A DNA stretch of 28,975 bases from a virus. The stretch covers positions 1 through 28,975 of IMG/VR virus record IMGVR_UViG_3300018481_000058; one strand, given 5' to 3'. The translations under genes and the position numbers were made by a program. The notes under the pieces are model-generated. The model saw only the letters and a program-made list of their open reading frames with translations, did not search any database and was not told where the DNA came from. Below are positions 2,501 through 28,128 of the stretch, piece after piece; the first letter of the stretch is position 1; each line of letters starts with the position of its first letter.

Positions 2501-2517
2501 CCAGGCTAGGTAGTACC
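2501..2517. promoter_or_regulatory. Dispersed element CCAGG-N3-GGTAGTACC upstream of the tail fibre gene
   Basis: CCAGG (2501-2505), spacer CTA, then the 9-nt palindrome GGTAGTACC (2509-2517). It sits in the 37-nt gap between the tail protein I-like gene and the tail fibre, 17-33 nt before the fibre ATG and upstream of its Shine-Dalgarno. The same bipartite layout occurs at 28104, 21862, 10906, 18959 and, on the other strand, 5986 and 18947. Binding by a regulator is inferred. Confidence 0.55.
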
Positions 2518-2521
2518 CGGC

Positions 2522-3277
2522 TCATGTCTCAACCGAGATCGCGATCTGAATGCCGCCGACGTCTCCCGAGTCGAGATCGATGTACCCGATCGCGTGCGCG
2601 TTATTCCACTCACGCGGCACCACGCGAATGTCGCGAATTAGTTCGGCACTCATGTTCGTGTCCCACACGCCGCCGTCATCCCACGTACCGGGATCGGACC
2701 ATATCCCGTCACCCTCGATCGCCACCGGCCACTTATAAAACAGTGTCCACTGTGCCCATTGCGGCGAGATCGAGCCGAGGTCGATCCACGTACGCTCAAC
2801 CGAACCGGTGGCCGGATCGAGCACGTACATTCGGCCATTCTCATAGATCAACGTGATCGGAAAGTTGTCGGGTGCAAAAAACGCGTGCACTTGAGCGAGC
2901 AGTGCATACGGGCCGCCGCGGATCCGGTGGTGATCGAGCCACGGGATCAACCGCGTCGCGTACGTCTCCTCGCTCTCGACACGGCCTCGACGGATCCGAC
3001 GTTCGCGGCCGATCAACGGGAGCGATTCGTTCGAGTAATACCCCGGGAACCGAGTCTTGACGCCGCCTCGCAACGCGTCGGCGAGCGCGTCGGTAACCGA
3101 GCCGATCGCGAACAGTACCGAGCCACCGATCGGCCCACGTAGCCACCACGGCGAGATCTGACGGATCGCATCACGGAACGTACGCAACACCGTTTGCGGG
3201 TACGCCGTCGGGCCGGTGGTAACAGGCGGGCCGATCGGCGCCGGTGGCGGCAAAAAGTACGAGGCCGACGAACTCAT
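2522..3277 (-). CDS. Baseplate/tail protein, tail protein I-like
   Basis: 251 aa, ATG at 3277 in an ATGA overlap with the gene upstream. The first 25 residues are Pro-rich. The core (about residues 35-120) contains 'AIGSVTDALADALRGGVKTRF', '..LPLIGRERRIRRG..ESEETYATRL' and 'LLAQVHAFF', the layout of phage tail proteins that join baseplate and fibre (P2 gpI / Mu gp48-type position). The second half is Trp-rich (WSDPGTWDDGGVWD). The position between baseplate J-like and tail fibre genes supports the role. Family assignment is by resemblance and synteny only. Confidence 0.6.
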   Translation of the reverse strand: MSSSASYFLPPPAPIGPPVTTGPTAYPQTVLRTFRDAIRQISPWWLRGPIGGSVLFAIGSVTDALADALRGGVKTRFPGYYSNESLPLIGRERRIRRGRVESEETYATRLIPWLDHHRIRGGPYALLAQVHAFFAPDNFPITLIYENGRMYVLDPATGSVERTWIDLGSISPQWAQWTLFYKWPVAIEGDGIWSDPGTWDDGGVWDTNMSAELIRDIRVVPREWNNAHAIGYIDLDSGDVGGIQIAISVET

Positions 3278-4323
3278 GCCGCGACCCTCGGTTGCATGAT
3301 CTTGAGGTGCGTGAGCGCAATGTCCATTGTCGCATTCTCTTGCGCGGTCTTGTCACACGCGAACACAAACCAGGTGTCCGCGGGGTTCAACGTTGGCGCA
3401 CTCAGCACGCGGTATTGCTCTACACCGCTCGCCACCGAGAAGCTTTGCATCTGGTCGGGGCCGGCCGGCAATGCCCCTGTCCACTGTCCGATCAACGGCA
3501 GGTGCCGATCCGCTGCGTATCGGTAGATACCCGGAACCCCGTCTCCGATCACATCACTTGCGTTGAGCGGTGCAACGATCGACGGCGCTAGCCGGCCCGC
3601 ATATTGCGGGTTTGACCAGTACGCGGACGTCATACCGGCCCGTTGGATCTGCAAGCCACCACCGGCAACGATCGTGATCACGTCGGCATTCGGCGCCACC
3701 GTGAGTAGCGCGCCGTACCCGAGTTGGTTCTGCCCCATTTGCGTGATCGTGCGCGGCGACGCGAGTCGCCACATGACAACGAGCGGTGCGAGCGGGTTGT
3801 AGTCCGCGAGTTGCGACAAGCGAAAGCACATTGCGCGATTGAGGTACGGCCCGGGAAACATGAATCCCGAGGTCGTCGAAATGGGATCTGGCCGAGTCAT
3901 CCGCAAGCCGGTGCCATTCAAGATCTCGCACGTCTGCGGCGTGTTCGTGATGAGCGGACCCTTGGCCCACCACTCCTTCCCGTCGATTGTGTATTGGCCG
4001 GCCGCTGTCATGAGTTGTGACGGTTGTTGCCGCAGATCTACATCGTAGATCGCGCCGAAAGTTTGCCCGCTCGTCGGCACCTCACCCGCCGCATCGTCGA
4101 CGTAGATCGTAGGATCGGCCGGCCACCCGCCGTCGCGCACGATGCTAAACGTGTTTCCAGCGCGGGTGCTTTGCGTGTAGTTGACCAGAAACGCGCCGTC
4201 ACGGTACACGCGCTCCTCGACCACGTCGAACCCCACACTGACGGCAACGACGTCGCCACTCGACGTAAACCCGAGCGGTTCATCCTTGCCGATCAAGCCG
4301 GGAGGTTTGTGAAACACCGTCAC
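3274..4323 (-). CDS. Unrecognised tail/baseplate-associated structural protein
   Basis: 349 aa from GTG 4323, in a GTGA overlap with the baseplate J-like gene; its own TGA overlaps the next ATG. I do not recognise a family. The protein is rich in Gly, Thr and aromatics, has no signal peptide or membrane segment, and looks beta-structured, as expected of an appendage protein. Lying between baseplate J-like and tail protein I-like genes, it is probably a baseplate or fibre-attachment component. A carbohydrate-binding fold is possible but not shown by any motif. Confidence 0.5.
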   Translation of the reverse strand: MTVFHKPPGLIGKDEPLGFTSSGDVVAVSVGFDVVEERVYRDGAFLVNYTQSTRAGNTFSIVRDGGWPADPTIYVDDAAGEVPTSGQTFGAIYDVDLRQQPSQLMTAAGQYTIDGKEWWAKGPLITNTPQTCEILNGTGLRMTRPDPISTTSGFMFPGPYLNRAMCFRLSQLADYNPLAPLVVMWRLASPRTITQMGQNQLGYGALLTVAPNADVITIVAGGGLQIQRAGMTSAYWSNPQYAGRLAPSIVAPLNASDVIGDGVPGIYRYAADRHLPLIGQWTGALPAGPDQMQSFSVASGVEQYRVLSAPTLNPADTWFVFACDKTAQENATMDIALTHLKIMQPRVAA

Positions 4324-5507
4324 AGCGCGGCCCCTTCACTCGGCGGAACCTGAGTGATCGACAGTGGCGTGACGGTACCGAGCACCGGAACCTGGTTGAT
4401 CGCGAGCACCACGTCGGCGGCCGGCACCTCAACGACGACGTGAAAGATCTGCGGAAATGTCGAGCCGATCGCCGTGCGAATCGCGTCGACGAACACCTTA
4501 CCCGGATCGGCACTCACGACGTTGCCGCCGATAGGCTGCCCCGACATGAATTCGACGAGTCGCCGCGCGATCGTGTCGGCGATCTCGGCCTCGGTTAGCC
4601 CGCTCGTGTTGTACATCCAAACGCGGTACGACACCGCGATCGCGAGCGGCGTTGCGCTCTCAACCCACGCGGCGATCGCGAGCGGCGCGGCCTTCGTCTG
4701 GATCGCCTCGTCGACGCACCCGAGGTCGGTGTCGAGATCGTCGACGGTGCCGGACACCTCGCCGGTGGCCGTCGCTACGTACGTCGTCACGTTGCCGAAC
4801 CCATCCTTGACGGTGCGCACCCGCGTCACCCCGATCACGGCCCCGTCGAGGCGCGTAGCGTTGCGTGCGGCGTAGCTATACGCGTCCCACGGACCCATGG
4901 GCGAGAGCGAGCCGAGCTTTTCAGAGCACCGCGCGCGCAGTGCCGGATCCTCCTCGTCGTCGCTACCGACGATCGACACCGCGTTGTCGACGGTGACACC
5001 GAGCAAGGGGGTGATAAATGTGACGACGGTGTGAGGTGCCGACGTCGACGAGGAGCCGGCCTCGAGCGCCACCACGGCAACGGTAAGGGTGGCGAGTGCG
5101 CCGAGTGAGAGCGCCTCGACGTTGCGGTATTGCTTGCCGGTGTCGGGGTTCGCGACGACGAGATCGCCGGGATCGAGCAGATAGATCCCACCACCCGTGT
5201 TGACTAGCGTTACCTCGCCGGCCGCGAACGTCGCGTATTGCTTCTCTACGCCGTACACGTACCACGCGACGAGAGCGAGCCACGAACCCGACGCGAGTTC
5301 GAGGTACCCACCCCGCGCGATCAACGCGGTGAGTTCGCTAAACGCCGACAGTATGATCGAGCAGGCCGTGATCATCGTTCGCACGACGGCGCCGGGTTTC
5401 CAACTCGTCGTGTTGGTGCCGACGGCCGCGATCACATCGTAGATCTTGCCCTCTACCTCGTCGCGAGTGAGCGGCGTTGTGAGTTGAGCGAGTGAGAAAA
5501 TGGCCAT
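4320..5507 (-). CDS. Baseplate J-like wedge protein
   Basis: 395 aa. The N-terminus (TRDEVEGKIYDVIAAVGTNT, then a long helical region) is followed by 'GSDDEEDPALRARCSEKL' and 'GPWDAYSYAARNA' (about residues 180-215), the hallmark segment of Baseplate_J / Mu gp47 proteins ('G.D.E.D..LR.R......P.G....Y...A'), then 'GVTRVRTVKDGFGNVTTYV'. These proteins form the wedges around the contractile-tail hub. Order (gp25-like, then J-like, then I-like) is the standard P2/Mu order. Length is within the usual range. The start ATG 5507 lies 1 nt after the gp25-like gene's stop. Confidence 0.88.
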   Translation of the reverse strand: MAIFSLAQLTTPLTRDEVEGKIYDVIAAVGTNTTSWKPGAVVRTMITACSIILSAFSELTALIARGGYLELASGSWLALVAWYVYGVEKQYATFAAGEVTLVNTGGGIYLLDPGDLVVANPDTGKQYRNVEALSLGALATLTVAVVALEAGSSSTSAPHTVVTFITPLLGVTVDNAVSIVGSDDEEDPALRARCSEKLGSLSPMGPWDAYSYAARNATRLDGAVIGVTRVRTVKDGFGNVTTYVATATGEVSGTVDDLDTDLGCVDEAIQTKAAPLAIAAWVESATPLAIAVSYRVWMYNTSGLTEAEIADTIARRLVEFMSGQPIGGNVVSADPGKVFVDAIRTAIGSTFPQIFHVVVEVPAADVVLAINQVPVLGTVTPLSITQVPPSEGAAL

Positions 5508-5508
5508 A

Positions 5509-5985
5509 TCAACCGATCGCTTCCAACACGGCCGCGCTCGAGGTAACCGCGAACGTGAGCGTAAAAGGGTTGAGTGTGGGGTGTGCCGCGGTGATCACCA
5601 CCGAGATCGCGAGCGTGAACGCGAGCGGATCTTGAGCCACCGTCACGACGGCCGAGTCGATCCGATCGTCTTTTGCGAGCTCGAGCGAACACCGGCCGCC
5701 GATCTCGCGTAGCTCGTCGAGGGTGGTGCCGCGGTTGCAGTACGCGCGCACGTCGATCCCGTAGTCGCGATCGTCGAGGAGCGCGCCGCGTGCCGTCGTG
5801 AGTCGACGGATCGCCGCCTCGCCGATCGCTTGCATAGAGAACGGATCAACCTCGTCGAGATCAACCGTCAGATCCGAAACGCACGCGAGGTCGGTGCCGT
5901 ACGCGAGTTCGCCGACGGGGTGCGGAACGAGCCGCACGAGCTCGGCGATCTGAGTGTCGATCGAGGTGCCGACCGTTTCGTTCAC
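5509..5985 (-). CDS. gp25-like / gpW-like baseplate wedge protein
   Basis: 158 aa from GTG 5985. The longer open frame upstream is not used: GGCGAGG lies 7 nt before this GTG, and the GTG overlaps the stop of a small upstream frame (GTGA). The core 'DPFSMQAIGEAAIRRLTTAR' followed by 'LLDDRDYGIDVRAYCNRG' matches the T4 gp25/P2 gpW pattern, in which the segment before 'PG..Y.....G.D' docks the wedge to the sheath. The Shine-Dalgarno and spacer are themselves part of the palindromic element at 5986-6002, so binding there could directly affect translation or transcription of the baseplate genes. Confidence 0.8.
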   Translation of the reverse strand: MNETVGTSIDTQIAELVRLVPHPVGELAYGTDLACVSDLTVDLDEVDPFSMQAIGEAAIRRLTTARGALLDDRDYGIDVRAYCNRGTTLDELREIGGRCSLELAKDDRIDSAVVTVAQDPLAFTLAISVVITAAHPTLNPFTLTFAVTSSAAVLEAIG

Positions 5986-6107
5986 GGTAGTACCTCGCCA
6001 GGTGAAACACCCCCAAAAATGCCGCGAATTCGCAACATTCCGGCGAGCTCGGGTATTACCCGAGACCCTACTCGAGGAGGTACTACCGTTGAAAAATCTC
6101 CGGACAT
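5982..6107 (-). CDS. Possible 41-aa small protein spanning repeat cluster A
   Basis: A short frame opens with ATG 6107, 11 nt after the stop of the preceding gene and behind GAGGG. It ends in a TGA that overlaps the GTG of the gp25-like gene. It reads straight through three GGTANTACC elements. Its C-terminus (GGVSPGEVLP) resembles the end of the HTH protein at 18940-19218 (RGITSPGQVVPI), because both are encoded by the same element. It may be a real coupling peptide, or only an open frame left by the repeat. No function can be proposed. Confidence 0.35.
   Translation of the reverse strand: MSGDFSTVVPPRVGSRVIPELAGMLRIRGIFGGVSPGEVLP
5986..6087. promoter_or_regulatory. Palindrome cluster A: three GGTANTACC elements before the gp25-like gene
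   Basis: Sites: GGTAGTACC 5986-5994 (joined by 3 nt to CCAGG 5998-6002), GGTATTACC 6052-6060, GGTACTACC 6079-6087. The last is part of a 20-nt block (6068-6087) that recurs exactly at 18995-19014. The first abuts the GTG start of the gp25-like gene. GGTATTACC is embedded in a longer palindrome, CTCGGGTATTACCCGAG (6049-6065). The region is AT-richer than its surroundings. It is a plausible operator/promoter region, but no clear -35/-10 pair is visible. Confidence 0.55.
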
Positions 6108-6118
6108 TTTCGCGGCCC

Positions 6119-6649
6119 TCACGGTGCGGTTTTGAGGATCGTCGAGAGCGCGGCCCACGTGGCCGGCACCGTCGTGAGAAATGCGATCGCGTTGCTCGCG
6201 TCGGCCGGCGACAAACCCGGCACCGAGCCGAGTCGCGCTTGCACCTCGGCACCGAACGAGCTCACCGGCCCGGTGTACGCGACGAGGTGCACCCCGGCCG
6301 CGGTTAGCGCGGCCTGAAACGAGACAATGATCGCGAGTTGCGCCTCGAGACTCGCAACCGTCGCTTGCAACGACGCGATCAAGTCGTTGATCGCCACGAT
6401 TTGCCCGAGGATCGTCGGTGGCGGCACGTTGAGCGTTATTTGCGCGTGAATCGCGGCGATCATTGCCTCGAGCGTCGAGATCTGCGTCGTGAGACTGATC
6501 GGCGTCGGCGCCCAAGATAGTAAACTCTCGATCTGTGCGAGCAGATCGGGCAACACGAGGTTGATCCCGGCCGCACCCGCAACGCCGACGGCCGCCGCAC
6601 CCGGCATCGTGCCGCCGATCGTGAGCGAGCCGAGGTACGTCGCCGTCAC
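6119..6649 (-). CDS. Hypothetical helical protein of the baseplate module
   Basis: 176 aa from GTG 6649, chosen because it forms a GTGA overlap with the hub gene's stop. It opens with a hydrophobic Gly/Ala stretch (LTIGGTMPGAAAVGVAGAAG). Then come long amphipathic helices with Ile/Leu/Gln/Glu heptad character (IESLL.., ISTLEAMIAAIHAQI, LIASLQATVASLEAQL), suggesting a coiled coil around residues 50-125. Its position between hub/spike and gp25-like genes suggests a small baseplate part or a chaperone. No family recognised. Confidence 0.6.
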   Translation of the reverse strand: MTATYLGSLTIGGTMPGAAAVGVAGAAGINLVLPDLLAQIESLLSWAPTPISLTTQISTLEAMIAAIHAQITLNVPPPTILGQIVAINDLIASLQATVASLEAQLAIIVSFQAALTAAGVHLVAYTGPVSSFGAEVQARLGSVPGLSPADASNAIAFLTTVPATWAALSTILKTAP

Positions 6650-7821
6650 GAGGCTACCTTGACCTTGCTCGAGCCGCTCGTGATCACACCGAGGGCCGTC
6701 GAGGGGGTGAACGTGATCAATCCCGAGGCCGGCGAGCCCCCCACCGTGCCCGAGAATTGCCCCGGTGGTAGCTGACACTCGACAATATCGCCTTGCCGCG
6801 CGGCCGGTGCGCCGGTGGGGCCGCCGAGCACGAGTTGCACGGGCACGAACCCCGGCCCGTCGAGCCCCGAGAACGCGAGCACGACGGGTTGCCCGCGATC
6901 ACCCTCGACGAACGCGACTAACACTTCAGTACCCGGGGTGAGGATCGCGTGTGCCCCGGCAATTCCCGGCATCACCGAGATCGGGAGCAAGTCGGGCAAC
7001 CCGGCAACCTTGCGCACGGCCTGTAGCTCGAGCCGCTCGCCGGACATGCGAACGAGGCGATAGCGGTAGTGGCCGTGCAACGCGCCGTCGGTGGTGCGCT
7101 CGACAATGGCGCGGATCAGGCCGGCAAGGTACCCGGTTCCCGTCGCGGTGCCCCCGCACCACGCGTACACACGCGCCTCGCCGGCCGTAACCCGCACCTC
7201 GAACGTGCGCACGATCTGCGGCCCGTCAATGTCGAGGAGCGCGCCGATCGACATAAGCTCGGGTGCGTCCATGGCAAGAGTCGCGATCCGCTCCCGAGGA
7301 TCGTACGCGAGCGTCGTGTACACCTTGCGCTCGAGGGGCACGGGAGGCCGCGGGCCGGCGTGCGTCACCCCGGCATAGTCGACCCACCACGGCACGCCGC
7401 CGAGCACCTCGTCGAGCACGCGGGAGGCCGGCCCGACGTCGCGCACGTAGTCTTTACCGACGCGCTCGGCGGCCGGCACGAACGAGCCGAGCGTCTCGCC
7501 GACTGCTCGAGCGGCGTCGTCGGCAACGAGTGAGGCGCGCACCCCGGCGTCGTTGTGATACTGCTTTGCCGTCACGGGGTGGCCCCACGCACCCGCGCCG
7601 GCCACGATACGCGCGCGCCGTTGCAACCCGTACGTGCCGCTCGCAACCTTACTAACCGTGCCGGTGCACTTGAGCTCGCCGATCGTGAGCACGACGCGGC
7701 CCTCGACTTTCGGATCGCTTTCGAAGTCCACGTCGGCGATCCACGGGCCGCCGTTCGACACGGTGAGCTTTGCCGCGGTACACCGTTCGCCGTCGACACC
7801 GAGGTATAGATCGTCGGCCAT
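6646..7821 (-). CDS. Baseplate hub with C-terminal spike-type OB domain
   Basis: 391 aa, ATG 7821, four nt after the previous stop. The N-terminal two thirds resemble hub proteins of the gpD / gp27 type, built of beta-barrel-like segments (LYLGVDGERCTAAKLTVSN...) with a helical insert near 'VLDEVLGGVPWWVDYAG'. Residues about 255-340 (HYRYRLVRMSG.., LLPISVMPGIAGA, TPGTEVLVAFVEGDRGQPVVL) match the OB-fold of Mu gp45/gpV/VgrG spikes, whose signature is 'P.VGDEVLV.F..GD...P.VLG'. Hub and spike therefore seem fused in one chain, as in VgrG. A separate spike gene is not seen nearby, which supports the fusion reading. Confidence 0.7.
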   Translation of the reverse strand: MADDLYLGVDGERCTAAKLTVSNGGPWIADVDFESDPKVEGRVVLTIGELKCTGTVSKVASGTYGLQRRARIVAGAGAWGHPVTAKQYHNDAGVRASLVADDAARAVGETLGSFVPAAERVGKDYVRDVGPASRVLDEVLGGVPWWVDYAGVTHAGPRPPVPLERKVYTTLAYDPRERIATLAMDAPELMSIGALLDIDGPQIVRTFEVRVTAGEARVYAWCGGTATGTGYLAGLIRAIVERTTDGALHGHYRYRLVRMSGERLELQAVRKVAGLPDLLPISVMPGIAGAHAILTPGTEVLVAFVEGDRGQPVVLAFSGLDGPGFVPVQLVLGGPTGAPAARQGDIVECQLPPGQFSGTVGGSPASGLITFTPSTALGVITSGSSKVKVAS

Positions 7822-7825
7822 GGGT

Positions 7826-8371
7826 TCACTCGCTCGCCATACGTTCGACTTGCAACATGGACGTTAGCGGTTTGATCCAGTTCTCCTCAATCGGATCGAT
7901 CGCCTCGGCCGTTGTTTCGTCGGCACCCTCGGGTTTCGCGAGCGTGACTTTCGGTGCGCGGAACTCGACGAATTTGATCTCGATCGACCACTCGCCGTCG
8001 CCGGTTTGATCGGGTTGCATCACCTCGGCAACGCCGACGGCCTTTATGTCGAGCGTTTGAAGCAACGGGTGCCAGATCGCTAGCTTGCCCGAGTCTTTAC
8101 CCTCGCCGCCTCGACGCGTCGGCAACCGATCCACGATCGGTTTCCAGTCGTGCCAGTCTTGCCAGTCTTGCGCACTGTACAGACGGATCACCACCGAGAA
8201 ATGTGCGAGGCCGCGGCCGGTGAACACCGAGAACGAACCCGTGATCCCGTGCCCCTCGCGTTCGTCCCACTTGCGCGGCGACGAGGCACCGCGCACCTCG
8301 GCAATACCCGGCGATTTCCTGCTCGCGAGCAGGATGTAATCACACGGCGAGGTGAGCGGATCCCAAGTCAC
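7826..8371 (-). CDS. Tail/baseplate protein between tape measure and hub
   Basis: 181 aa from GTG 8371, in a GTGA overlap with the tape measure stop; the longer upstream frame is a shadow of the tape measure gene. Visible features: 'VTWDPLTSPCDYILLASRKSPGIAEV' at the N-terminus, a Trp-rich 'DWQDWHDWKP' centre and a 'WSIEIKFVEFRAPK' beta strand. The position corresponds to the protein that caps the tube at the baseplate (P2 gpU/gpX or Mu DNA-circulation-type position). I infer a tube-initiator or baseplate role; the family is not identified. Confidence 0.6.
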   Translation of the reverse strand: MTWDPLTSPCDYILLASRKSPGIAEVRGASSPRKWDEREGHGITGSFSVFTGRGLAHFSVVIRLYSAQDWQDWHDWKPIVDRLPTRRGGEGKDSGKLAIWHPLLQTLDIKAVGVAEVMQPDQTGDGEWSIEIKFVEFRAPKVTLAKPEGADETTAEAIDPIEENWIKPLTSMLQVERMASE

Positions 8372-10251
8372 GCCGGCACCCGAGGCAACGCCGCGCCGAG
8401 TTGGATCGCGATCCGCTCGAACACCGGCACGAGTTCGCGCTCGACGTCGGCCGCTATGTCGCCGCCCTTGTCGCTCGAGGCCGTCACAACGATGCCACCG
8501 ACGTTGATCGTCACTCCACCACCCGCACGGCCACCGGAACCGGCCGGTGTGTCGACGAGGCCGGCCACGGCGTTGTTTGCCTCGTCGGCACCGCTCTCGA
8601 CACCGACGGCCACACCTTGCGGGATCGCGAGGCCGAGGCGCGCGAACTCTTTCGACGGTGACGCGATCCCGAGCGACTCTTTCAACGAGCCGAGCGCGCT
8701 CGCACCGAGATCCGACACGGTATCGGTCAACCATTTCGCGCTCGCCTTGATCCCGTTGACGATGCCTTCAACGATCGCGCTACCCATGCTGGTCCAGTCG
8801 ATCTCATCCCACAACCGATAGAGTTGATACACGAACGCGATCAACACACCGACGGCGACGGCGGCGAGCAGGAACGGCGCGGCGAGTATGAGCCCTTGCA
8901 CCGCGAGCGCGCCGACGGCGGCGACGGCGGCCCATATGAACGGCGCGGCGACGACGAGCGCGGCGACGACGAGCGCAAACGCCGCCACCATTGCCACACC
9001 GAACAACCCGACGGCCGCGATCCCGGCGTATAGCGCGGCCTTCGTCATGTCGAGCGAGCTTTTCATTTCGCCGGTACCGAACGTTTCCTTCCACCACCGA
9101 CGTACTTTCGCGATCGCGATCGCGACGAGCAGGCCGCCAATGATGATCCCTTGAAAGAACCGCTTTACGTACGGTGTGGCGGCCGTGATCTGGTCGACCA
9201 TAGGTTGAAAGATCGTCGTCATGACGGCCTTGAGCGCTCGGCCGCTCGCCGTGTTTTGCGAGAACAACGCGGTGATCGAGTTGAGCCCCTTGAGTAGCGC
9301 TTCAATCCCGAGATCGGCGAACAGTCCGGCAAAACTCTCGCTCAACTTTGCGATCTGCACGTCGAGATCGAGTAGTTGCGCCGCGGCAACGCCGCCGAGT
9401 CGTGCCTTGACGTCGTCACTCAGTGCCTTTACCGACTTGCCGGCGCGCGCGGCACCGGCCGCCATGGTGGCGAACGATTTTGCCCCCTCGTCGCCGGCCA
9501 CGGCGCCACTTATCGCCATACCCTCGAGCGCGGTGTCGAGCGTTTTGCCGCGTAGCCCGAGCTTGTATAGCTCGGCCGTGTATTCGCCGAGCTTGTCGCG
9601 GCCGAGGGCCGTCGTGCCGCTCACCCGATCGATCGACGCTTGCAACTCGGCCGCGTTGCCCGCGGCGGCACCGTGTGCGGCGGCGACTTTCGTCAACGCT
9701 TCGAGGTGCAACCCCTCGTTGCGGCGCGCGTTCGCACTCGCGATCCCAAACTTGAGCATGGCGGCCGTAGCGGCGACGGCGGCAACCGCAACGGCGACGA
9801 GCACGGCGGCGACGGCAACCAGGCCGCCAACGAGTGCACCACGCGAGACGATGCCGCTTAGCGATTGCAACTGTCCGGCGACGCCGCCAACCGGCCCCGG
9901 TAGATCCCGCGCCGTTTTACCGAGTTCGGCGAGCTTGTCGGCGAACGAGCGTGCGTTCTTTTTCGCCGTGTTGAACCCGCCACCGAGTTGGATGTACGAC
10001 GACTGTGCACCGGCGATCGCTTGTTTCTGCGCCTCGATCCGTTTCGAGAGCTCGGCGATCTGCGGTAGGTTCGGCGTCGTCGCACCCTTCAAGTTGCGCA
10101 ACGCCTTTTGCATTTGCCCGAGTGCCGTCGTGTCGGCGTCGATCTTCTTTTTCAGGTTGGCGAGCGCTTGCGCCGCGGCCTCGGCCGGGCCGCTCGTGCC
10201 ATCCTCGAGATTGACGGCGAATGTTGCGGTCTCGTCGGCCCCTTTTGCCAT
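8368..10251 (-). CDS. Tail tape measure protein
   Basis: 627 aa from ATG 10251. The N-terminus is a coiled coil (ANLKKKIDADTTALGQMQKALRNL; IAELSKRIEAQKQAI). Hydrophobic segments follow at about residue 140 (GGLVAVAAVLVAVAVAAVAA), in the middle (FFQGIIIGGLLVAIAIAK), and in a long run of Ala/Val/Leu around residues 400-480. Near the C-terminus is 'ESLGIASPSKEFARLG', the 'LGI.SPSK.F...G' motif very typical of tape measure C-termini. By the rule of about 0.15 nm per residue, the tail would be roughly 90-95 nm. It lies directly downstream of the chaperone frameshift genes, as expected. Confidence 0.9.
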   Translation of the reverse strand: MAKGADETATFAVNLEDGTSGPAEAAAQALANLKKKIDADTTALGQMQKALRNLKGATTPNLPQIAELSKRIEAQKQAIAGAQSSYIQLGGGFNTAKKNARSFADKLAELGKTARDLPGPVGGVAGQLQSLSGIVSRGALVGGLVAVAAVLVAVAVAAVAATAAMLKFGIASANARRNEGLHLEALTKVAAAHGAAAGNAAELQASIDRVSGTTALGRDKLGEYTAELYKLGLRGKTLDTALEGMAISGAVAGDEGAKSFATMAAGAARAGKSVKALSDDVKARLGGVAAAQLLDLDVQIAKLSESFAGLFADLGIEALLKGLNSITALFSQNTASGRALKAVMTTIFQPMVDQITAATPYVKRFFQGIIIGGLLVAIAIAKVRRWWKETFGTGEMKSSLDMTKAALYAGIAAVGLFGVAMVAAFALVVAALVVAAPFIWAAVAAVGALAVQGLILAAPFLLAAVAVGVLIAFVYQLYRLWDEIDWTSMGSAIVEGIVNGIKASAKWLTDTVSDLGASALGSLKESLGIASPSKEFARLGLAIPQGVAVGVESGADEANNAVAGLVDTPAGSGGRAGGGVTINVGGIVVTASSDKGGDIAADVERELVPVFERIAIQLGAALPRVPA

Positions 10252-10257: not shown

Positions 10258-10934
10258 TCACTCGTTCGTTGTGAGTAGTTTGGCAATGTGATCGAGTCGT
10301 CGAAGGCCGCGAACGAGGAGCAGTGCACCGGCGTAGCGTCGTGCGGTTTCCTGATCGGTGATCTCCTCGTGAACGTCGAGGCCGAGCACTGCGAGCAAAC
10401 ACTCGGCGGCGATCCCGTCGTCGCGCAACGCCTCGGCTCGCAGTGCAACTATTTTCCCTGTACCTCCTCGACAACCAGGCCGGCGAGTTTCGCCGCGGCA
10501 CTCGCCACGTGTTCGAGCAACGCCGGCTCGGCCTTGAGCACGCGTTCAAACCCGAGCTTGTCGGGGTGCACGAGACATTGATAGGTGAAGCGCTCGTTGA
10601 TCGTCGAGAGCGGCAACTTACCGGCCGACACCGCGTCGATCATCGCGCGGTAACCCGCGTGCGTGGGACGCTTGACGATGATCACCCCGTGCCCCCTCGA
10701 CTGCACCACGGCAATGTCGCGATCGATCGGGCCGAGCTCGCACTCGGCCTTCGCGATCGCCTCCTCGTCGGCGATCGCCGAACGCATACGCTCGAGCTCG
10801 TCGGTTGCCGCGCGCGCGGCCGTGCGTTGCTCGCGACTCTCGACGAGGCGAGCACGCTCGGCGCGTAGTTGCTCGAGCTCGCTCACGGCCGAATTTGGGC
10901 CGCGACCTGGATCGGTAGTACCGGTGTCGCTCAC
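10258..10934 (-). CDS. Tail assembly chaperone, long form made by -1 ribosomal frameshift
   Basis: The short chaperone frame ends at the TAG at 10449-10451, directly after the heptamer GGGAAAA (minus strand, 10458-10452). In zero frame this is G-GGA-AAA, the canonical X-XXY-YYZ slippery site. Slipping back by 1 continues as IVALRAEALRDDG... for 64 more codons to a TGA at 10258-10260, eight nt before the tape measure ATG. The product would be 225 aa. The extension is well packed with codons of the local type (for example LLAVLGLDVHEEITDQETARRYAGALL). Lambda gpG/gpGT and equivalents in many tailed phages, including P2-like ones, use the same trick to make the two chaperones that load the tape measure. 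Confidence 0.85.
10386..10458 (-). promoter_or_regulatory. -1 programmed frameshift signal: slippery heptamer, spacer, 11-bp stem
   Basis: On the minus strand: slippery GGGAAAA (10458-10452), 5-nt spacer containing the TAG, then GCACTGCGAGC (10446-10436). Its exact inverted copy GCTCGCAGTGC is at 10396-10386. The 39-nt loop can pair internally (GGCG with CGCC). Heptamer, spacing and a perfect 11-bp stem all fit a stimulatory structure for -1 frameshifting. Confidence 0.88.
10449..10934 (-). CDS. Tail assembly chaperone, short form
   Basis: 161 aa from GTG 10934 (GTGA overlap with the tube gene). The N-terminus SDTGTTDPGR is encoded by a palindromic repeat element and recurs in the HTH protein at 21510-22196. 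Residues about 20-75 are a charged coiled coil (LEQLRAERARLVESREQRTAARAATDELERM). The rest (RGHGVIIVKRPTHAGYRAMIDAV...) is a compact domain resembling phage tail chaperones with 'P....Y......'. The position between tube and tape measure, and the frameshift signal at its end, identify the role better than the sequence does. Termination at TAG gives the abundant gpG-like form. Confidence 0.8.
   Translation of the reverse strand: MSDTGTTDPGRGPNSAVSELEQLRAERARLVESREQRTAARAATDELERMRSAIADEEAIAKAECELGPIDRDIAVVQSRGHGVIIVKRPTHAGYRAMIDAVSAGKLPLSTINERFTYQCLVHPDKLGFERVLKAEPALLEHVASAAAKLAGLVVEEVQGK
10902..10932. repeat. 31-nt exact repeat, copy 1, containing CCTGG-N3-GGTAGTACC
   Basis: Identical over 31 nt to 21858-21888. 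The core CCTGG (10906-10910), spacer ATC and palindrome GGTAGTACC (10914-10922) belong to the dispersed element family. It overlaps codons 2-11 of the tail chaperone, starting just after the GTG start. Confidence 0.8.
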
Positions 10935-18700: not shown

Positions 18701-18943
18701 TCAGTCTCGCAAGTAAGGTGTGCGCGCGCGCGTCAACGCGTAGACCGTTTTGACGCCACCCCATTGGGCTCGAGATAGGATCCTTGCGCATTGGGCACAC
18801 GTCACGAGCGAGCGATCGCGCGTCGTGTCGACGCCAAGCAGGCCGCACACCGTGTCGGGCCGTAGTTCGGGAAACGGCGACATGGGCCGCAACCCGAACG
18901 CCGCGCGTTGATCGCACGCGAGGTGCACGCGTCTGTTTTTCAT
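18701..18943 (-). CDS. Small Cys-rich, probably zinc-binding protein
   Basis: 80 aa, ATG 18943 overlapping the previous stop as ATGA. It has 'VHLACD' (His7, Cys10), 'VCGLLG' (Cys33) and 'VTCAQCARIL' (Cys49, Cys52). The layout H..C, CG, then T...VTC..C is common in short phage/actinobacterial hypothetical proteins thought to bind zinc. The element CCTGG-N3-GGTAGTACC (minus strand) ends 3 nt before the start codon. Function unknown; position between HTH protein and portal gives no specific hint. Confidence 0.65.
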   Translation of the reverse strand: MKNRRVHLACDQRAAFGLRPMSPFPELRPDTVCGLLGVDTTRDRSLVTCAQCARILSRAQWGGVKTVYALTRARTPYLRD

Positions 18944-19218
18944 ATCGGTACTACCTGGCCAGGCGAGGTAATACCCCTTGTTTTATAGGCTTTTCTACTC
19001 GAGGAGGTACTACCCGATCGATTTTTCGAGGGCCACGACTCACGCGGGATCTGACAGTGCACCTCGAGCGCCACGCGCGCGCGGAAACTCGGGAGCCACG
19101 CACCCGCGGCCCACCGACTCACGTTCGACTCGTGCACGCGCACGCGTGCCGCTACCTCACGCGCGCCGATCACTTGGATCACGGCGAGCAGGCGACGACG
19201 GCCGCTTATCGCCGCCAC
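18940..19218 (-). CDS. Small HTH DNA-binding protein carrying repeat cluster B in its 3' end
   Basis: 92 aa from GTG 19218, overlapping the terminase end by 13 nt; the stop overlaps the next ATG. Residues about 17-63 form an HTH of the Xre/Cro kind: 'GAREVAARVRVHESNVSRWAAGAWLPSFRARVALEVHCQIPRESW', close in layout to the HTH of the protein at 21510-22196 (IADSIGASKQAVSTWRTGVRVP...IPLDAWD). The last 25 codons are encoded by the palindrome cluster, so the gene carries its own candidate operator. It could be a regulator acting on the GGTANTACC sites, or a packaging accessory. Confidence 0.65.
   Translation of the reverse strand: MAAISGRRRLLAVIQVIGAREVAARVRVHESNVSRWAAGAWLPSFRARVALEVHCQIPRESWPSKNRSGSTSSSRKAYKTRGITSPGQVVPI
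18947..19014. promoter_or_regulatory. Palindrome cluster B: three GGTANTACC elements, two sharing one CCAGG
   Basis: Sites: GGTACTACC 18947-18955, GGTAATACC 18967-18975, GGTACTACC 19006-19014. CCAGG (18959-18963) sits between the first two with exactly 3 nt on each side, giving a symmetric GGTACTACC-TGG-CCAGG-CGA-GGTAATACC. A 20-nt block (18995-19014) is identical to 6068-6087. Between the second and third sites, minus strand TATAAA (18986-18981) could be a -10 box, but no good -35 lies 17 nt upstream. Confidence 0.6.
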
Positions 19219-20870: not shown

Positions 20871-20873
20871 GGA

Positions 20874-21251
20874 TCAACCCCGCTTGAAAGGGTAAGAGTC
20901 GGGGTGCGGCTCGAGGCCGGGTGGTGCCGGCGCCGGCGAAGGTAGTACCGCGCGCGCGTTGTCGACGAGTGCACCCGGCGCGGTGTCGAGCGGCAAGGTA
21001 CCGGTGATCAAGTCGTGCGCAATGAGCAGGCCGCGCGCCACACCGACGGTGTACGCGTCGCCGTCGCGTACGTGTTTCGCCGCGTGCCAGTGCGCGCGCA
21101 GTGTGGCGAGCGTTTGCTCGAGGGCCACCGACAGATCGGCCGCGCACGTCGACGCGTCGGGTTTGCCTTGCCGGTGCCGGCGTTCGTCCCAATAGTCCGG
21201 CAACGCGGCGAGCGTGTGCGGCGCGTTCGGATCCTCGTGTACCGGCCTCAC
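20874..21251 (-). CDS. Hypothetical protein before terminase
   Basis: 125 aa from GTG 21251, in a GTGA overlap with the small HTH gene. The middle is helical (ADLSVALEQTLATLRAHWHAAKHV.., VGVARGLLIAHDLITGTLP). The C-terminus is Pro-rich (VLPSPAPAPPGLEPHPDSYP) and includes codons from a GGTAGTACC element (20941-20949). No family recognised. The position just before the large terminase would allow a packaging role, but nothing in the sequence proves it. Confidence 0.6.
   Translation of the reverse strand: MRPVHEDPNAPHTLAALPDYWDERRHRQGKPDASTCAADLSVALEQTLATLRAHWHAAKHVRDGDAYTVGVARGLLIAHDLITGTLPLDTAPGALVDNARAVLPSPAPAPPGLEPHPDSYPFKRG
20941..20949. promoter_or_regulatory. Isolated GGTAGTACC palindrome within a coding region
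   Basis: Exact palindrome with a poor CCWGG half (CCGGC-GAA-) on the left. It lies 310 nt inside the gene at 20874-21251 and about 70 nt upstream of the terminase start. It is the weakest member of the family. Confidence 0.35.
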
Positions 21252-21463
21252 GCGCTCACCTGGTTGCGCACCGACACGCGGCGCGGCCCACCCTTGCGAG
21301 CCGGTACGCGCCGGATCCTGAGTGCGTTACGGATCGGGGTGGTGCTCACTTGGTACTCGAGCGCTAGTTGTTCGATCGTGGCACCGCGCAGATACTTGAT
21401 CGCGATCTCGTCGACGTGCGCCGCGGTGAGCACTCGGCATTTTCCGGTTGTAAATGGACGCAT
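21248..21463 (-). CDS. Small HTH protein
   Basis: 71 aa from ATG 21463, with GGAGA nine nt upstream; the longer upstream frame is rejected. 'LTAAHVDEIAIKYLRGATIEQLALEYQVSTTPIRNALRIRRVP' is an HTH of the resolvase/Hin C-terminal type (I...Y..G.....LA..Y.VS...I...L). The C-terminus is basic (ARKGGPRRVSVRN). Likely a small DNA-binding regulator or packaging factor. The gap before it contains two tandem CACCGGTGCAC sequences, a candidate operator. Confidence 0.7.
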   Translation of the reverse strand: MRPFTTGKCRVLTAAHVDEIAIKYLRGATIEQLALEYQVSTTPIRNALRIRRVPARKGGPRRVSVRNQVSA

Positions 21464-21483
21464 GATCGTGTGTCTCCTCGGTT

Positions 21484-21510
21484 CACCGGTGCACGAGTAC
21501 ACCGGTGCAC
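21484..21510. repeat. Tandem CACCGGTGCAC palindromes in the gap before the small HTH gene
   Basis: CACCGGTGCAC occurs at 21484-21494 and 21500-21510, 16 nt apart. Each contains the palindrome CACCGGTG, so the pair can also fold as a hairpin with an 8-nt loop. It fills most of the 46-nt gap between two HTH genes. An operator or an attenuating hairpin is possible; there is no following T-run for an intrinsic terminator. Confidence 0.5.
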
Positions 21511-22196
21511 TATTCGTTCGTGTCGGCCTCGTCGCCGAGCACGCGCAAGATCGCCGCCTCGACGGCCTTACTCGCGGCCGGGTGCGGGAGCAGTGCCGCA
21601 ATGATCAACCGCTTCAACCGTTGCCACTCGACGTGTTCGCGGATCGTGCGCGGTTCGATCATTTCGCGCGCGCGCTCGAGCCGCTCTTTTTGCGTCAACG
21701 CTCGTGCAAACGCGTCGCCGAGTTGCACACGCTCGCGGCCGAGCAGATCGGGCCGGTTGAGTTGTGAGCGCAAGAGTGCGAGGAGCCGCGTGCAATCCTC
21801 GAGCGCGCTCGGCTCGGCACCGGGGCCGCTAATCGGAAACCACGGCGCCGGATCGGTGCGACCTGGATCGGTAGTACCGGTGTCGCTCGTGTTGCCGCTC
21901 GTCGAGTGCGGCGGCCGATCCCACGCGTCGAGCGGTATCGCGTGCACCGCGTGCAACTGTCGGCGCCATTGTTCGTCGGGCACGCGTACGCCGGTGCGCC
22001 ACGTCGACACCGCTTGTTTGCTCGCGCCGATCGAGTCGGCGATCAGTTGCACCGCGCCGCGCACTGCACAGAGCAAGCGCGCACCCTCGTTTGCCGGCGT
22101 CGGATCGTCGACGTGGCCGGCCACTACCGCACGCGCCGAACGTTTCGCGGGTGCGGCGCGGGTAGCGGCAACGGGTTTCGCGTGTTTACCGGCCAT
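21510..22196 (-). CDS. HTH protein, possible terminase small subunit or regulator
   Basis: 228 aa, ATG 22196, first gene after the long leader. The N-terminus is basic (KHAKPVAATRAAPAKRSAR). Residues about 45-93 hold an HTH 'AVQLIADSIGASKQAVSTWRTGVRVPDEQWRRQLHAVHAIPLDAWD'. A linker containing SDTGTTDPGR (31-nt repeat copy 2) follows. The C-terminal part is helical and charged (LRSQLNRPDLLGRERVQLGDAFARALTQKERLERAREMIEPRTIREHVEWQRLKRLI). Being first in the packaging block, with a DNA-binding N-terminus and helical C-terminus, fits a small terminase. A transcription regulator is the alternative. Confidence 0.65.
   Translation of the reverse strand: MAGKHAKPVAATRAAPAKRSARAVVAGHVDDPTPANEGARLLCAVRGAVQLIADSIGASKQAVSTWRTGVRVPDEQWRRQLHAVHAIPLDAWDRPPHSTSGNTSDTGTTDPGRTDPAPWFPISGPGAEPSALEDCTRLLALLRSQLNRPDLLGRERVQLGDAFARALTQKERLERAREMIEPRTIREHVEWQRLKRLIIAALLPHPAASKAVEAAILRVLGDEADTNE
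21858..21888. repeat. 31-nt exact repeat, copy 2, containing CCTGG-N3-GGTAGTACC
   Basis: Identical to 10902-10932 and read in the same frame, giving SDTGTTDPGR in both proteins. The core CCTGG is at 21862-21866 and GGTAGTACC at 21870-21878. It lies in the linker region of the HTH gene. Confidence 0.8.
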
Positions 22197-24467: not shown

Positions 24468-25168
24468 GGTACGCACCCCGCAACCAGGTCGGCGTGCGCG
24501 CGTGCGAGCTCGGCCTCGACGCGCACCGGATCGAGCGCGCTCGCGTCGCAAGCGGGTTGCCGGCGCGCTGATACCCACGCACCACCGACAAGAAACCGCG
24601 TGCGGTACGTCGGCACGAGCAACACGACGCGCACGAGCCCGCAATACGTGCACGCGGCCGGTTCCCACAACTCGCCGGCACCTTGCCGCCACCAATGAGG
24701 CCGCGAGCGCTCCCGGGGCTGGCTCGAGGGCCGATCACCCTCGATCACCTCGTCGTCGTCGTGAGTTGCGAACGGTTCGCGAGCGGTTCCCCAAAACGGT
24801 TCCCGATCGCCGAAAATGGCCCTCGGCCGACCCCCCAAAAACCGCTTGTTTTGCAAATACCCCGGGAACCGGCCCCTGCGCCTCATAGCGGCCCTTACCC
24901 CCCTCGGGGCCGGTCGGTGTCGTTTCGAGCGGTTCCCGCGCCGTACGCCCCCCATTGCGTGCGACGGGCAATAGTTCGAGATCTGGCTCGACACCCTCAA
25001 CCCTACCGTTCCCACCTCCCCAACACAGTTCCCCGGTTCCCCACCTCTTAAAGGTGGTGGGAACCGTGGGAACCGGTTGTGGTGATCCGGGTGCGGGAAC
25101 CACCGGGAACCGACAGGGAACCGCGGAACCGCGATCGTATCCACCCCGATTAGGGACACACGACTCAC
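24464..25168 (-). CDS. Protein with GGTTCCC-repeat-encoded N-terminus and C-terminal Cys cluster
   Basis: 234 aa. GTG 25168 overlaps the helicase stop and its TGA overlaps the resolvase ATG, so translation of the whole frame is likely. Residues 1-135 are odd: Arg/Pro/Phe-rich with repeated RFP/WFP (VPRFPVGSRWFPHPDHHNRF), encoded by many GGTTCC words. Residues 168-210, 'LWEPAACTYCGLVRVVLLVPTYRTRFLVGGAWVSARRQPACD', carry Cys173, Cys176 and Cys207 and resemble small phage zinc-binding proteins. I infer a zinc-binding tail fused to repeat-born sequence. Function unknown. Confidence 0.6.
   Translation of the reverse strand: MSRVSLIGVDTIAVPRFPVGSRWFPHPDHHNRFPRFPPPLRGGEPGNCVGEVGTVGLRVSSQISNYCPSHAMGGVRRGNRSKRHRPAPRGVRAAMRRRGRFPGYLQNKRFLGGRPRAIFGDREPFWGTAREPFATHDDDEVIEGDRPSSQPRERSRPHWWRQGAGELWEPAACTYCGLVRVVLLVPTYRTRFLVGGAWVSARRQPACDASALDPVRVEAELARAHADLVAGCVP
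24785..25130. repeat. Array of GGTTCC/GGAACC words with a central hairpin
   Basis: Eleven exact hexamers in 346 nt. GGTTCC is at 24785, 24798, 24931 and 25035; GGAACC is at 24865, 25060, 25069, 25096, 25106, 25117 and 25125. There are two near copies (25007, 25028). Orientation is mostly one way on the left and the other on the right. Between them, CCACCT-CTTAA-AGGTGG (25041-25057) is a perfect hairpin, flanked by GGTTCC and GGGAACC to give an imperfect palindrome over 25035-25065. Lying just after the helicase gene, it could be an iteron-like origin; this is inference. Confidence 0.5.
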
Positions 25169-26700
25169 GACGGCACCCCGGCGACAGTCGGCCGCGGCCG
25201 GTACACCCCGTCAGTGCGCACTAGCAACCCCTCCTCGAGCAACTCGCGGATCACCGGCCCCGAGTCGCGCTTGCGTATGCCGGCGAGTCGGGTGATCGCG
25301 CCGAACGAGCGGCAATCCTCTTTCACGCACGCGGTGAGCACGCGCGTACGCAAGGCCGACGACTTGACGCGCTCGCGATCGGCGTCGTCGTCGGCCGGTT
25401 TCGGCACCTCGCGAAATGCGAGCGACGCAAAGTCGAGGCTCAACCGTATTTCTGGCTTGTCCGGCCCGAGTCGGTTTTTCGCTACCTCGAGATCGATGAT
25501 CCCGCGCTCACTACGCACGGGTTTCAAACCGATCTGTAGATGTGACGCGTATTCGATCGCGCGAGTTTCTGCCCCGGCCGCGAGTGCACTGATATCGGTG
25601 TCGCGCTTGCCGGTTCGGTACCCGGCCCGGCTCATTTCCGAGATCGCGATCACGAGGGTGCCGCGTCGAGCAACGCCGTCGAGTAACTCGACGATGTACT
25701 CGAGCTGTTCTTTACGCGTCTCGAACGCGGCGGCACCCGACGCCGGCACTTTTTGCAACGAGTCGACGATCAACACGCGTGGCTTGCCCGCGGCGAGGTG
25801 CACGAGCTCGGCCTCGCACTGCTCGAGCGTGATGCGATCGGCGAACGGATCGATCACCTTGAGCGCGCGGCCTCGAGCGTTGCGGGCAAATGCGTTGCGG
25901 CGGCCGGGATCGACACCCTCGAGCAGATCGCGATCGTGGCCGTCGAGTTGCCCGATCCGGGTAACGATCGCTTCGCGAGACTCGTCGGCGGCGACGTACA
26001 ACACGCCGCACCCGGCGCGCTCCCAGTTGTCACACAACCACGTCGACAGATTCGTTTTGCTCGCACCCGGCGCACCGAGGATCGAGATAAACCGGCCCAC
26101 GGGCAGGCCGCCGCGCGTCGCCTCGTCGAGCGTGGGCAACCCGATCGGGAGCCTCGGCCCTGTTTGCGCGATGCCGGGTATGCAATCGACGAGCGACGGT
26201 GCGCGCGGCCCCGAGTTGGCAACCGAGTCGAGATCCAGTTGCGCGGCGGCGAGGCGCGCAACCAGGCCGGCGATCTCGTCGGGTGATGCGACACCGAGCG
26301 CGCGCGCCACCGTTTGCAACCGACGTTGACGTGCGAGCCGGCGCAAGCGCGTAAAGTCGGCATCCTTGTTCGGGATCGTGTCGGTGAGAGCGTTGACGTA
26401 GTCGGGGCCGCCGACGTACCGCAAGCGCTCGGTGTCGGCGAGGCGGCCGATCACCGCGGCCGAGTCGATCTTTGTGCCCTCCTCGTCGAGAAACGTGAGG
26501 GCCGACCACACGGCCTCGTTCGCCGCCGAGTAAAAGTCGCTCGCGATCACGTTGCTCGAGCGGATAACGGCCGGGTGAATCACGCACGTGCCGAGCAAGA
26601 GCCGCTCGAGATCGAGATCGTGCACGGGCACGACGTCGCGCAAGTGCTTTGCCCGATCGTCGCTCCCGTTCGGCCCGTGTGTGTTTTTCACCGCGCGCAC
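25165..26700 (-). CDS. DnaB-type replicative helicase
   Basis: 511 aa from GTG 26700, behind GAGGGG. The N-terminal domain (about 25-165), 'LDLERLLLGTCVIHPAVI...DFYSAANEAVWSALTFLDEEG..IDSAAVIGRL', is a DnaB N-domain. The RecA core begins at 'GLPTLDEATRGGLPVGRFISILGAPGASKTNLSTWL', with Walker A 209-216 (Lys215, Thr216). 'VLYVAADESREAIVTRIGQL' and Walker B 'VLIVDSLQ' (309-316) follow. Residues 440-505 add a winged-helix-like tail (VLTACVKEDCRSFGAITRLAGIRKRDSGPVIRELLEEGLLVR). It unwinds DNA at the phage fork. The C-terminal wing is not part of standard DnaB and may direct origin binding. Confidence 0.88.
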   Translation of the reverse strand: MRAVKNTHGPNGSDDRAKHLRDVVPVHDLDLERLLLGTCVIHPAVIRSSNVIASDFYSAANEAVWSALTFLDEEGTKIDSAAVIGRLADTERLRYVGGPDYVNALTDTIPNKDADFTRLRRLARQRRLQTVARALGVASPDEIAGLVARLAAAQLDLDSVANSGPRAPSLVDCIPGIAQTGPRLPIGLPTLDEATRGGLPVGRFISILGAPGASKTNLSTWLCDNWERAGCGVLYVAADESREAIVTRIGQLDGHDRDLLEGVDPGRRNAFARNARGRALKVIDPFADRITLEQCEAELVHLAAGKPRVLIVDSLQKVPASGAAAFETRKEQLEYIVELLDGVARRGTLVIAISEMSRAGYRTGKRDTDISALAAGAETRAIEYASHLQIGLKPVRSERGIIDLEVAKNRLGPDKPEIRLSLDFASLAFREVPKPADDDADRERVKSSALRTRVLTACVKEDCRSFGAITRLAGIRKRDSGPVIRELLEEGLLVRTDGVYRPRPTVAGVPS

Positions 26701-26752
26701 CGGTACCCCTCGACGTGTTCAACCCGCACGCAAACCCCCTCGCGTGCGTGTG

Positions 26753-27316
26753 TCAGTGCGAGGAGATCGCGGCCTCGGCCTCGTCGTCGTCGACAACCTC
26801 GTCGGTGTCGTCGTCGCTATCGTCGTCGTTCTCGTCGTCGGGGCCGAGGGGCTCGAGCTCCTCACGTTCGAGGGCCGCGTACTGCTCGGTGAGCGTGCTC
26901 GGTGCCGCGTCGAGTGCCTCGAGCGGTAGTTGCCCACCGTTGCCGTTCGAGGCCGCTTTCGGGAACATGGCGGTTTGACGTTCGTCGCCACGCATCACGC
27001 GTTGTCCGCACACCTCGTTGGTGTCGAGCCGGATCACCTCGATCACGTTGCGCTCGAACGACGGCCGCTCTTTCACGGGCACTTGACGGTATTCGACGCC
27101 GGTACGCACGGCCTCCGCCAGATCGCCGATCTTGCGATCGCATGCCTTGATCTCTTTTGCGTACCGTTGCGCGGCGAGCGCTTTCTCGAGGGTGAGCGCG
27201 TCGCGTTCGTTCACCGAGTGGGCGAGCGAGTCGGCGGCCTGATCTTTCTCGTGTGCCGTGAGCTTGCACGGGAGGCGTTCGACGAACGGCGACTTTTGCG
27301 TGGGTTGAGTTGTCAT
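26753..27316 (-). CDS. Conserved-looking hypothetical protein with acidic tail
   Basis: 187 aa from ATG 27316, chosen because AAAGGGA lies upstream; a GTG at 27382 overlapping the methyltransferase stop is an alternative. The N-terminal half is helical (KDQAADSLAHSVNERDALTLEKALAAQRYAKEIKACDRKI). The middle, 'RPSFERNVIEVIRLDTNEVCGQRVMRGDERQTAMFP', has a 'v.v.RlDT.Ev...R.M...E.Q' pattern that I have seen in phage hypothetical proteins. The tail has long Asp/Glu runs (DDENDDDSDDDTDEVVDDDE), encoded by GTC/GTCG microsatellite-like DNA. Function unknown. Confidence 0.65.
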   Translation of the reverse strand: MTTQPTQKSPFVERLPCKLTAHEKDQAADSLAHSVNERDALTLEKALAAQRYAKEIKACDRKIGDLAEAVRTGVEYRQVPVKERPSFERNVIEVIRLDTNEVCGQRVMRGDERQTAMFPKAASNGNGGQLPLEALDAAPSTLTEQYAALEREELEPLGPDDENDDDSDDDTDEVVDDDEAEAAISSH

Positions 27317-27378
27317 GAGGCGGCGATCCCTTTCCGGCCGCGGCGACGTGCCGAGGCCGTGCGACAGTTGCGAGCAAG

Positions 27379-28128
27379 TCACTCAGTGAAAAGCGACGGG
27401 GTGAACCCGCGAGCGAACCGAGCTCGAGCGGCGTCGTACTGATCGATCTGCACCTCGGCCCCGACGCAACGGCGGCCCTCGATCGCCGCGGCGATCAACG
27501 TGGTGCCGCCACCCGCGCACGGATCGCACACGAGATCGTCGGCCCTCGAGTAGTCGCGAACGAGCGCACGCATACTGTCGGTGCGTTTGCCACCCATAAC
27601 GACGCGATCGCCGCGGCCCTTGAAAATGTACGCACCCGGGAGCGTGCCCCAACATGAAAGCGCGCGCGGCCGAGCGACGACGAGCCAACAAGACCAGCTC
27701 GAGGGGCCGTCGCCGGTGAGCCGCACGCGCGAACCTATCTCGACGAGCGGGAGCGGCGCGAACACGTACCGGCCGGCGTCGGCGAGCTCGTCGGCCCAAC
27801 ACGGCGCAAGGGTGTGATCGGTGATCGACACAAACCACCCGCGCGTTCTGCTCGAGAAAAAGTCGACGCACTCGCGAACATGATCGGCCGTCCAAGCGGG
27901 GTAGTTGATCGGCCTGGTTACCTTGCGGTGCCCGTATGCCGGATCGTGGTGGCCGTCGTTGCGCGTCGTGTTGTCGTGCCCCGAGTGCGTGCGCAACGAG
28001 TAAGGTGCGTCTAGGATCACCGCGTCGGGCTCGACGTCGGCGAGTACATCCTGATAGCGGCCGAGCCGCAGATCGATCCCGTGTGACGGCACACTATCGG
28101 CAACCAGGTTAGGTAGTACCGTCGTCAC
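27379..28128 (-). CDS. Site-specific DNA methyltransferase (amino-methyltransferase, DPPY/SPPY class)
   Basis: 249 aa from GTG 28128 (GTGA overlap). Motif IV is 'VILDAPYSLRTHSG' (Asp40-Ala-Pro-Tyr), a DPPY variant. Motif I is near the C-terminus, 'DLVCDPCAGGGTTLIAAAIEGRRCVGAEV' (Asp202 onward), so the order IV then I is that of beta-class N6-adenine or N4-cytosine enzymes. No restriction partner is visible, so it is an orphan methylase, probably protecting phage DNA from host restriction or marking it. Codons 4-9 carry one of the CCAGG-N3-GGTAGTACC elements. Base and target sequence cannot be read from the protein. Confidence 0.85.
   Translation of the reverse strand: MTTVLPNLVADSVPSHGIDLRLGRYQDVLADVEPDAVILDAPYSLRTHSGHDNTTRNDGHHDPAYGHRKVTRPINYPAWTADHVRECVDFFSSRTRGWFVSITDHTLAPCWADELADAGRYVFAPLPLVEIGSRVRLTGDGPSSWSCWLVVARPRALSCWGTLPGAYIFKGRGDRVVMGGKRTDSMRALVRDYSRADDLVCDPCAGGGTTLIAAAIEGRRCVGAEVQIDQYDAARARFARGFTPSLFTE
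28104..28120. promoter_or_regulatory. Dispersed element CCAGG-N3-GGTAGTACC at the start of the methyltransferase gene
   Basis: CCAGG (28104-28108), spacer TTA, GGTAGTACC (28112-28120). It lies 8-24 nt inside the coding region, at the same place relative to the start as the 10906 copy in the tail chaperone gene (12-28 nt). Confidence 0.55.

Follow-up and report, generated by a model that had tools for sequence, protein, structure and literature searches.

A dispersed palindrome with fixed-spacing partners in a small group of uncultured phages

Our analysis showed that the palindrome GGTANTACC, with CCWGG precisely 3 nt away, recurs as a strict two-part mark in a small group of uncultured phages, where it most likely provides the docking sites of a DNA-binding protein that controls gene expression. 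The window, i.e. the whole stretch analysed, is the complete IMG/VR record IMGVR_UViG_3300018481_000058 (28,975 bases, linear); it is probably a 29-kb metagenomic fragment, and the immunity region is not on it. Nearly all of its genes are carried by the minus strand. One run of them, of the myophage (head-tail) type, encodes terminase, portal, protease, major capsid protein, sheath and baseplate; these are followed by genes for a DnaB-like helicase and an N6/N4 DNA methyltransferase. A DNA-level search of a wide phage database with the window gave zero matches, and its terminase is less than 60% identical to every phage-database match. Relatives were sought in IMG/VR through capsid, terminase, baseplate, sheath and methyltransferase matches, and the resulting comparison set has three close genomes together with a few fragments, all incomplete. 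G001 and G002 are close relatives, with about 83-90% DNA identity to the window across aligned parts, and capsid protein identity to the window is 81% in G004, 70% in G005, 61% in G007 and about 45-50% in G008.

All 11 GGTANTACC coordinates given in a preliminary description of this DNA were exact, as were its seven bipartite sites, five in one sense (2501, 10906, 18959, 21862 and 28104 on the + strand) and two in the other (5986 and 18947 on the - strand). The comparison with shuffled controls that it had called for yielded an expectation of 0.05 palindromes in the window (dinucleotide shuffles, maximum 1 in 200); other models gave 0.18 (order-2) and 0.35 (order-3 simulations, maximum 2 in 300), and the seven copies that have CCWGG at a distance of exactly 3 nt compare with control averages of 0 to 0.003. 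The pattern is real and far beyond chance, and GGTA-N-TACC tops the list of gapped palindromes that were tested in the window and G002. The centre base, first described as S, is so in nine of the 11 copies and A or T in the other two; a one-mismatch version of the site occurs zero times in the window. That the fixed spacing is the signal was borne out by the CCWGG offsets pooled from the window, G001, G002, G008, L221, L133 and L135, where N3 accounts for 19 CCWGG and no other offset, up to 39 nt, has more than one. The consensus of 18 distinct sites is CNACCWGG-NTA-GGTAGTACC-S, in which the half-sites never change whereas the spacers do; exact spacing in all 18, despite the variable spacers and flanks, points to a constraint on contacts and not to recent copying.

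The dyad centres of GGTANTACC and CCWGG are 10 bp apart, or one helical turn. A second fixed partner, which had gone unremarked in the preliminary description, is CTCGAG, found at exactly 2 nt from the palindrome in seven cases in the pooled clade (expectation 0.06 or fewer per genome), with a centre-to-centre distance of 9.5 bp. CTCGAG marks the opposite end of the two composite arrays of the window, A and B (Table 1), both of which begin with GGTAGTACC-TC-CTCGAG and finish with CCTGG-N3-GGTASTACC. Both the window and G002 also contain a symmetric 29-bp unit, GGTANTACC-N3-CCWGG-N3-GGTANTACC, in which one CCWGG is common to two palindromes. This regular phasing suggests that protein dimers may sit on one face of the DNA.

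The sites are biased in location. Their closeness to start codons, already pointed out in the preliminary description, holds when the gene starts called in the present analysis are used and independent loci are counted: five of the seven are no more than 35 nt away from a start codon, a zone that takes up 8% of the sequence (binomial p=6e-5). The idea that they are module boundaries found no support, as identity to G001, G002 and G004 shows no systematic shift across the sites compared with random positions (the exceptions are composite B for G001 and 21862 for G002), and only one site adjoins an extra gene (18701-18943). This gene, directly after composite B, encodes 80 aa, is present only in the window among the seven genomes compared and has no family match. 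The palindrome at 20941 has no CCWGG or CTCGAG at a fixed offset and is degenerate in relatives, and is therefore probably outside the system.

Table 1. Positions of palindromic sites, associated words and parA-type arrays, in the window unless a genome is named. Strand is that of the row as listed; motif sense is separate, five sites pointing one way and two the other.
Feature	Position	Strand	Location
Solo bipartite site, GGTACTACC-TAG-CCTGG	2501..2517	-	flanked by stop codon of gene 2522-3277 and ATG of gene 1270-2484
Composite array A, GGTAGTACC-TC-CTCGAG ... GGTAATACC ... CCTGG-CGA-GGTACTACC	5986..6087	-	abuts GTG of gene 5509-5983
Solo bipartite site, GGTACTACC-GAT-CCAGG	10906..10922	-	near start of gene 10449-10934, in tail-chaperone position
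Composite array B, GGTAGTACC-TC-CTCGAG ... GGTATTACC-TCG-CCTGG-CCA-GGTAGTACC	18947..19014	-	3 nt before ATG of gene 18701-18943
GGTAGTACC without partner	20941..20949	.	in coding sequence
Solo bipartite site	21862..21878	-	inside gene 21510-22196, in a linker variable between relatives
Solo bipartite site, GGTACTACC-TAA-CCTGG	28104..28120	-	just after start of N6/N4 DNA methyltransferase gene 27379-28128
CAACCAGG	9816, 10472, 15189, 24481, 26259, 28101	+	
CAACCAGG	22708, 21259, 4391	-	
parA-type arrays, G005	15110, 29098, 34242		
parA-type arrays, G007	9632, 15588, 39503		

At homologous junctions in relatives that are 83-96% identical, sites are retained, decayed, expanded or lost. The site at 2501 is shared by the window, G001 and G002 and missing in G004. 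At junction A, G002 has the same palindromes within another array sequence, and G001 and G004 have nothing. The 10906 site is solo in the window and G002, a full composite in L221, decayed to GGCACTACC-GTT-CCGGC in G001 and absent from G004. Composite B of the window is replaced by a pair flipped relative to it in G002 and L135, by a single site in L133, by a decayed one in G001 and by none in L134. Across close relatives a given junction can thus be empty, hold a solo or a decayed site or carry the full array, which makes gain and loss traceable step by step. The site at 21862 is absent from G002 and L133, which have CAACCAGG there instead, and within this gene G002 carries a site of its own, displaced by about 250 bp relative to the one in the window; junction 28104 lies outside the sequence of every close relative. 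The palindromes were kept, though the intervening sequence diverged, at junction A (window and G002) and at junction 10906 (window, G002 and L221). There is not one GGTANTACC in the 131 kb of G004, G005 and G007, and five are found, including a three-site array, in the more distant G008; the distribution of the system thus departs from that of the core genes. A scan of viral contigs for GGTACTACC-N3-CCTGG returned mostly single chance matches, repeated bipartite sites being confined to the clade of the window. Nor does the bipartite mark look like a motif of the host: a related terminase was found in one genome only, that of an uncultured deltaproteobacterium (8.8 Mb), which has zero bipartite sites and whose 17 GGTANTACC are below the 67 copies of a reversed control pattern.

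Symmetric, strict sites next to gene starts are best fitted by dispersed operator control of the late operon, and we rate at about even the chance that the pairs of GGTANTACC with CCWGG or CTCGAG are operators serving such control for a dimeric or tetrameric protein encoded by the clade. One dimer would read GGTANTACC, and a second contact, one helical turn on and on the same face, would read CCWGG or CTCGAG. The sites would lie beside gene starts along a single long late operon, with denser composites before a few genes. Their action would most likely be dispersed transcriptional control, late transcription being silenced or roadblocked in a plasmid prophage and this silencing being lifted in lytic growth, which may be likened to the stoperators of L5 but with symmetric sites; the mixed orientation makes a polar roadblock of the L5 kind unexpected. 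The near-complete relatives fit this picture in looking temperate and plasmid-like: they encode ParA with a ribbon-helix-helix protein and have a repressor-like gene between two palindromes of its own, CGTTATAACG. A more particular version, a phage-plasmid silencer in which one protein would read two palindromes a turn apart at dozens of fast-turnover, clade-specific sites and govern the whole late operon regardless of orientation, is conceivable but doubtful. Counting against operators are the intragenic location of some sites (21862) and the fact that G004, G005 and G007 manage without any. A further point against them is that no sigma-70-like promoter was found in the composites, although the host is no model organism for sigma-70.

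The best reading is that the putative binder is encoded outside the window; the clade's immunity region falls outside the sequences of the window, G001 and G002. Genes 18940-19218 and 21510-22196, both named as candidate binders in the preliminary description, also occur in the site-less G004, G005 and G007, so their presence does not track the motif. An ORF screen for a binder common to G008 and missing in G004, G005 and G007 gave nothing useful; the fragments have no early-region overlap. Gene 28125-28898 (257 aa, with a weak HTH-like stretch) adjoins the methyltransferase gene, a site lying between the two, and has no homologue in G004, G005 or G007, G004 having a small gene in that place. 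In these three genomes a repressor-like gene is flanked by a pair of CGTTATAACG about 1 kb apart (30205/31194 in G004, 21312/22400 in G005 and 1927/3001 in G007), and these pairs are likely to be their immunity operators; G001 has one CGTTATAACG at 8756, near GGTACTACC at 8711. To our knowledge, dispersed regulatory sites have been well worked out in actinobacteriophages only, and the phage family described here is unrelated to them. If the binder were the immunity protein, the clade would show how a phage adopts or abandons a genome-wide silencing network with its genes unchanged.

By analogy, the sites can be classed as dispersed operator-like repeats, the nearest known kind being a palindromic repeat of 17 bp from Cluster O. 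Mycobacteriophages of this Corndog group carry about 34 copies of the dyad TGTTCGG-N3-CCGAACA, about one third of them intragenic and without fixed orientation, with deletions between copies, and a dimeric binder has been proposed (PMC4351075). The sites described here share with these repeats invariant dyad halves, a variable centre, dispersal, a mixture of intergenic, 5'-end and intragenic locations and no fixed orientation, but differ in sequence, in their 9-bp core, in its coupling at one turn to CCWGG or CTCGAG and in their composite arrays; moreover, Cluster O has neither lysogens nor a parAB partition system, whereas relatives of the window carry ParA. The likeness to L5-type stoperators drawn in the preliminary description was partly right. 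Cluster A stoperators (L5, Bxb1) are asymmetric sites of 13-14 bp to which a monomer binds and which point in the direction of transcription (PMC6550527, PMC9283540), and some Cluster A phages use ParABS prophage plasmids (PMC6550527). Like them, the present sites are dispersed in short intergenic spaces near starts and have a clade-specific sequence; symmetry and orientation do not agree (a palindromic core, a five-to-two split in sense and the reversal at junction B), and seven bipartite sites in 29 kb are below the 20-30 of Cluster A. As GGTANTACC and CCWGG are each palindromic and their orientation is mixed, we do not assign the sites to this class. The SAS repeats of Cluster K stand at gene starts, the extended form (ESAS) being paired inverted repeats with a variable spacer (PMC3203893); SAS lack symmetry, are found 3-7 bp upstream of start codons and nearly always face the same way, and the present sites, symmetric, in both orientations and on both sides of starts, do not belong with them.

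The alternative that holds up best, though we consider it unlikely, is that each composite is a small cassette, mobile or recombining, bounded by GGTANTACC, and that the solos are remnants of such cassettes, recombination between palindromes causing deletion, inversion and expansion. It would fit the arrays at junction A in the window and G002 and their lack in G001, the double, single and missing sites at junction B (G002/L135, L133 and L134) with opposite orientation in the window and G002, the full composite of L221 where the window and G002 have a solo, and the presence of GTGAGCGA on both flanks of site 10906; recombination between repeats has been described in Cluster O phages (PMC4351075). 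Mobility accounts for presence, absence and reversal, but not for composite interiors that are unlike each other, contrary to what recently moved copies would show. In addition, a possible target duplication of 8-10 bp is seen at 10906 only and not consistently at other loci, a transposase was not found, and mobility does not require a strict 10-bp geometry.

Partition, replication or packaging signals, needed at intervals along the genome, would be in keeping with a spacing of roughly one locus per few kb in the window and with the location of some sites in tolerant protein linkers, but we regard this as improbable. Also in its favour, a ParA gene is followed by a ribbon-helix-helix (RHH) gene in G005 (29109-29837) and G001 (5299-6096, window orientation); from this pair, the relatives are probably phage-plasmids, i.e. 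plasmid prophages with type Ib-like partition. However, the start of parA in G001 bears another array, CACCGGTGNAC at 5323, the nearest GGTANTACC copies lying at 2872 and 8711, and G005 and G007 have arrays of their own upstream of parA, so GGTANTACC is not the partition site; an array next to parA, as in a type Ib (ParA/RHH) centromere, was not found for it. The parA-type arrays are palindromic and phage-specific (CACCGGTGNAC in the window, G001 and G002, TAGACACC/GGTGTCTA in G005, ACATGT-type in G007). The CACCGGTGNAC array occurs in five further places in G001 (six within 2670-9859) and at 21481-21510 of the window. The arrays occupy positions upstream both of parA and of gene 21248-21463, the latter at a junction common to the window, G002 (21432-21451), G005 (15110) and G007 (39503), and are candidates for dispersed centromere sites whose sequence differs from phage to phage.

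Least probable of all, and a weaker fit than operator control of the late operon, is action on RNA at translation starts in the manner of Cluster K SAS/ESAS, with the AGGT that the palindrome contains as a ribosome-binding site sequestered by paired palindromes: the palindrome does end 0-1 nt before the GTG at 5986 (window and G002) and in L221, with a suitably spaced GAGG, and composite A has a strong fold (z -5.7 for the window, -5.2 for G002) with a centre pair that is G-C in the window and C-G in G002, but folds are expected because palindrome copies pair with each other anyway, composite B of the window and the L221 composite fold no better than shuffles (z -1.4 and -0.95), sites 10906, 28104 and 21862 are intragenic, and 2501 has its own GAGG.

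A hint of the host comes from one terminase (55% identity) on one deltaproteobacterial MAG contig, on which the genes nearby match the portal and capsid proteins as well; a search for the major capsid protein across bacterial genomes did not find relatives. The family may perhaps consist of myophages of deltaproteobacteria. CCWGG is enriched in the context of CAACCAGG in the clade of the window; this word, about 0.5 copies of which are expected, occurs nine times in the window, 13 times in G002 and not at all in G004, G005 and G007, and its codon phases differ. CCWGG itself is few in number (23) because CAG and AGG words are rare, and its counts fit a maximal-order Markov model, which speaks against restriction avoidance of this word. 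Other words are strongly avoided across the family (window, G001, G002, G004, G005 and G007): GGGCCC was seen twice where 66 were expected, TTAA 7 times (52 expected), CTGCAG 8 (42) and AGGCCT 9 (47), a pattern that suggests restriction pressure from the host.
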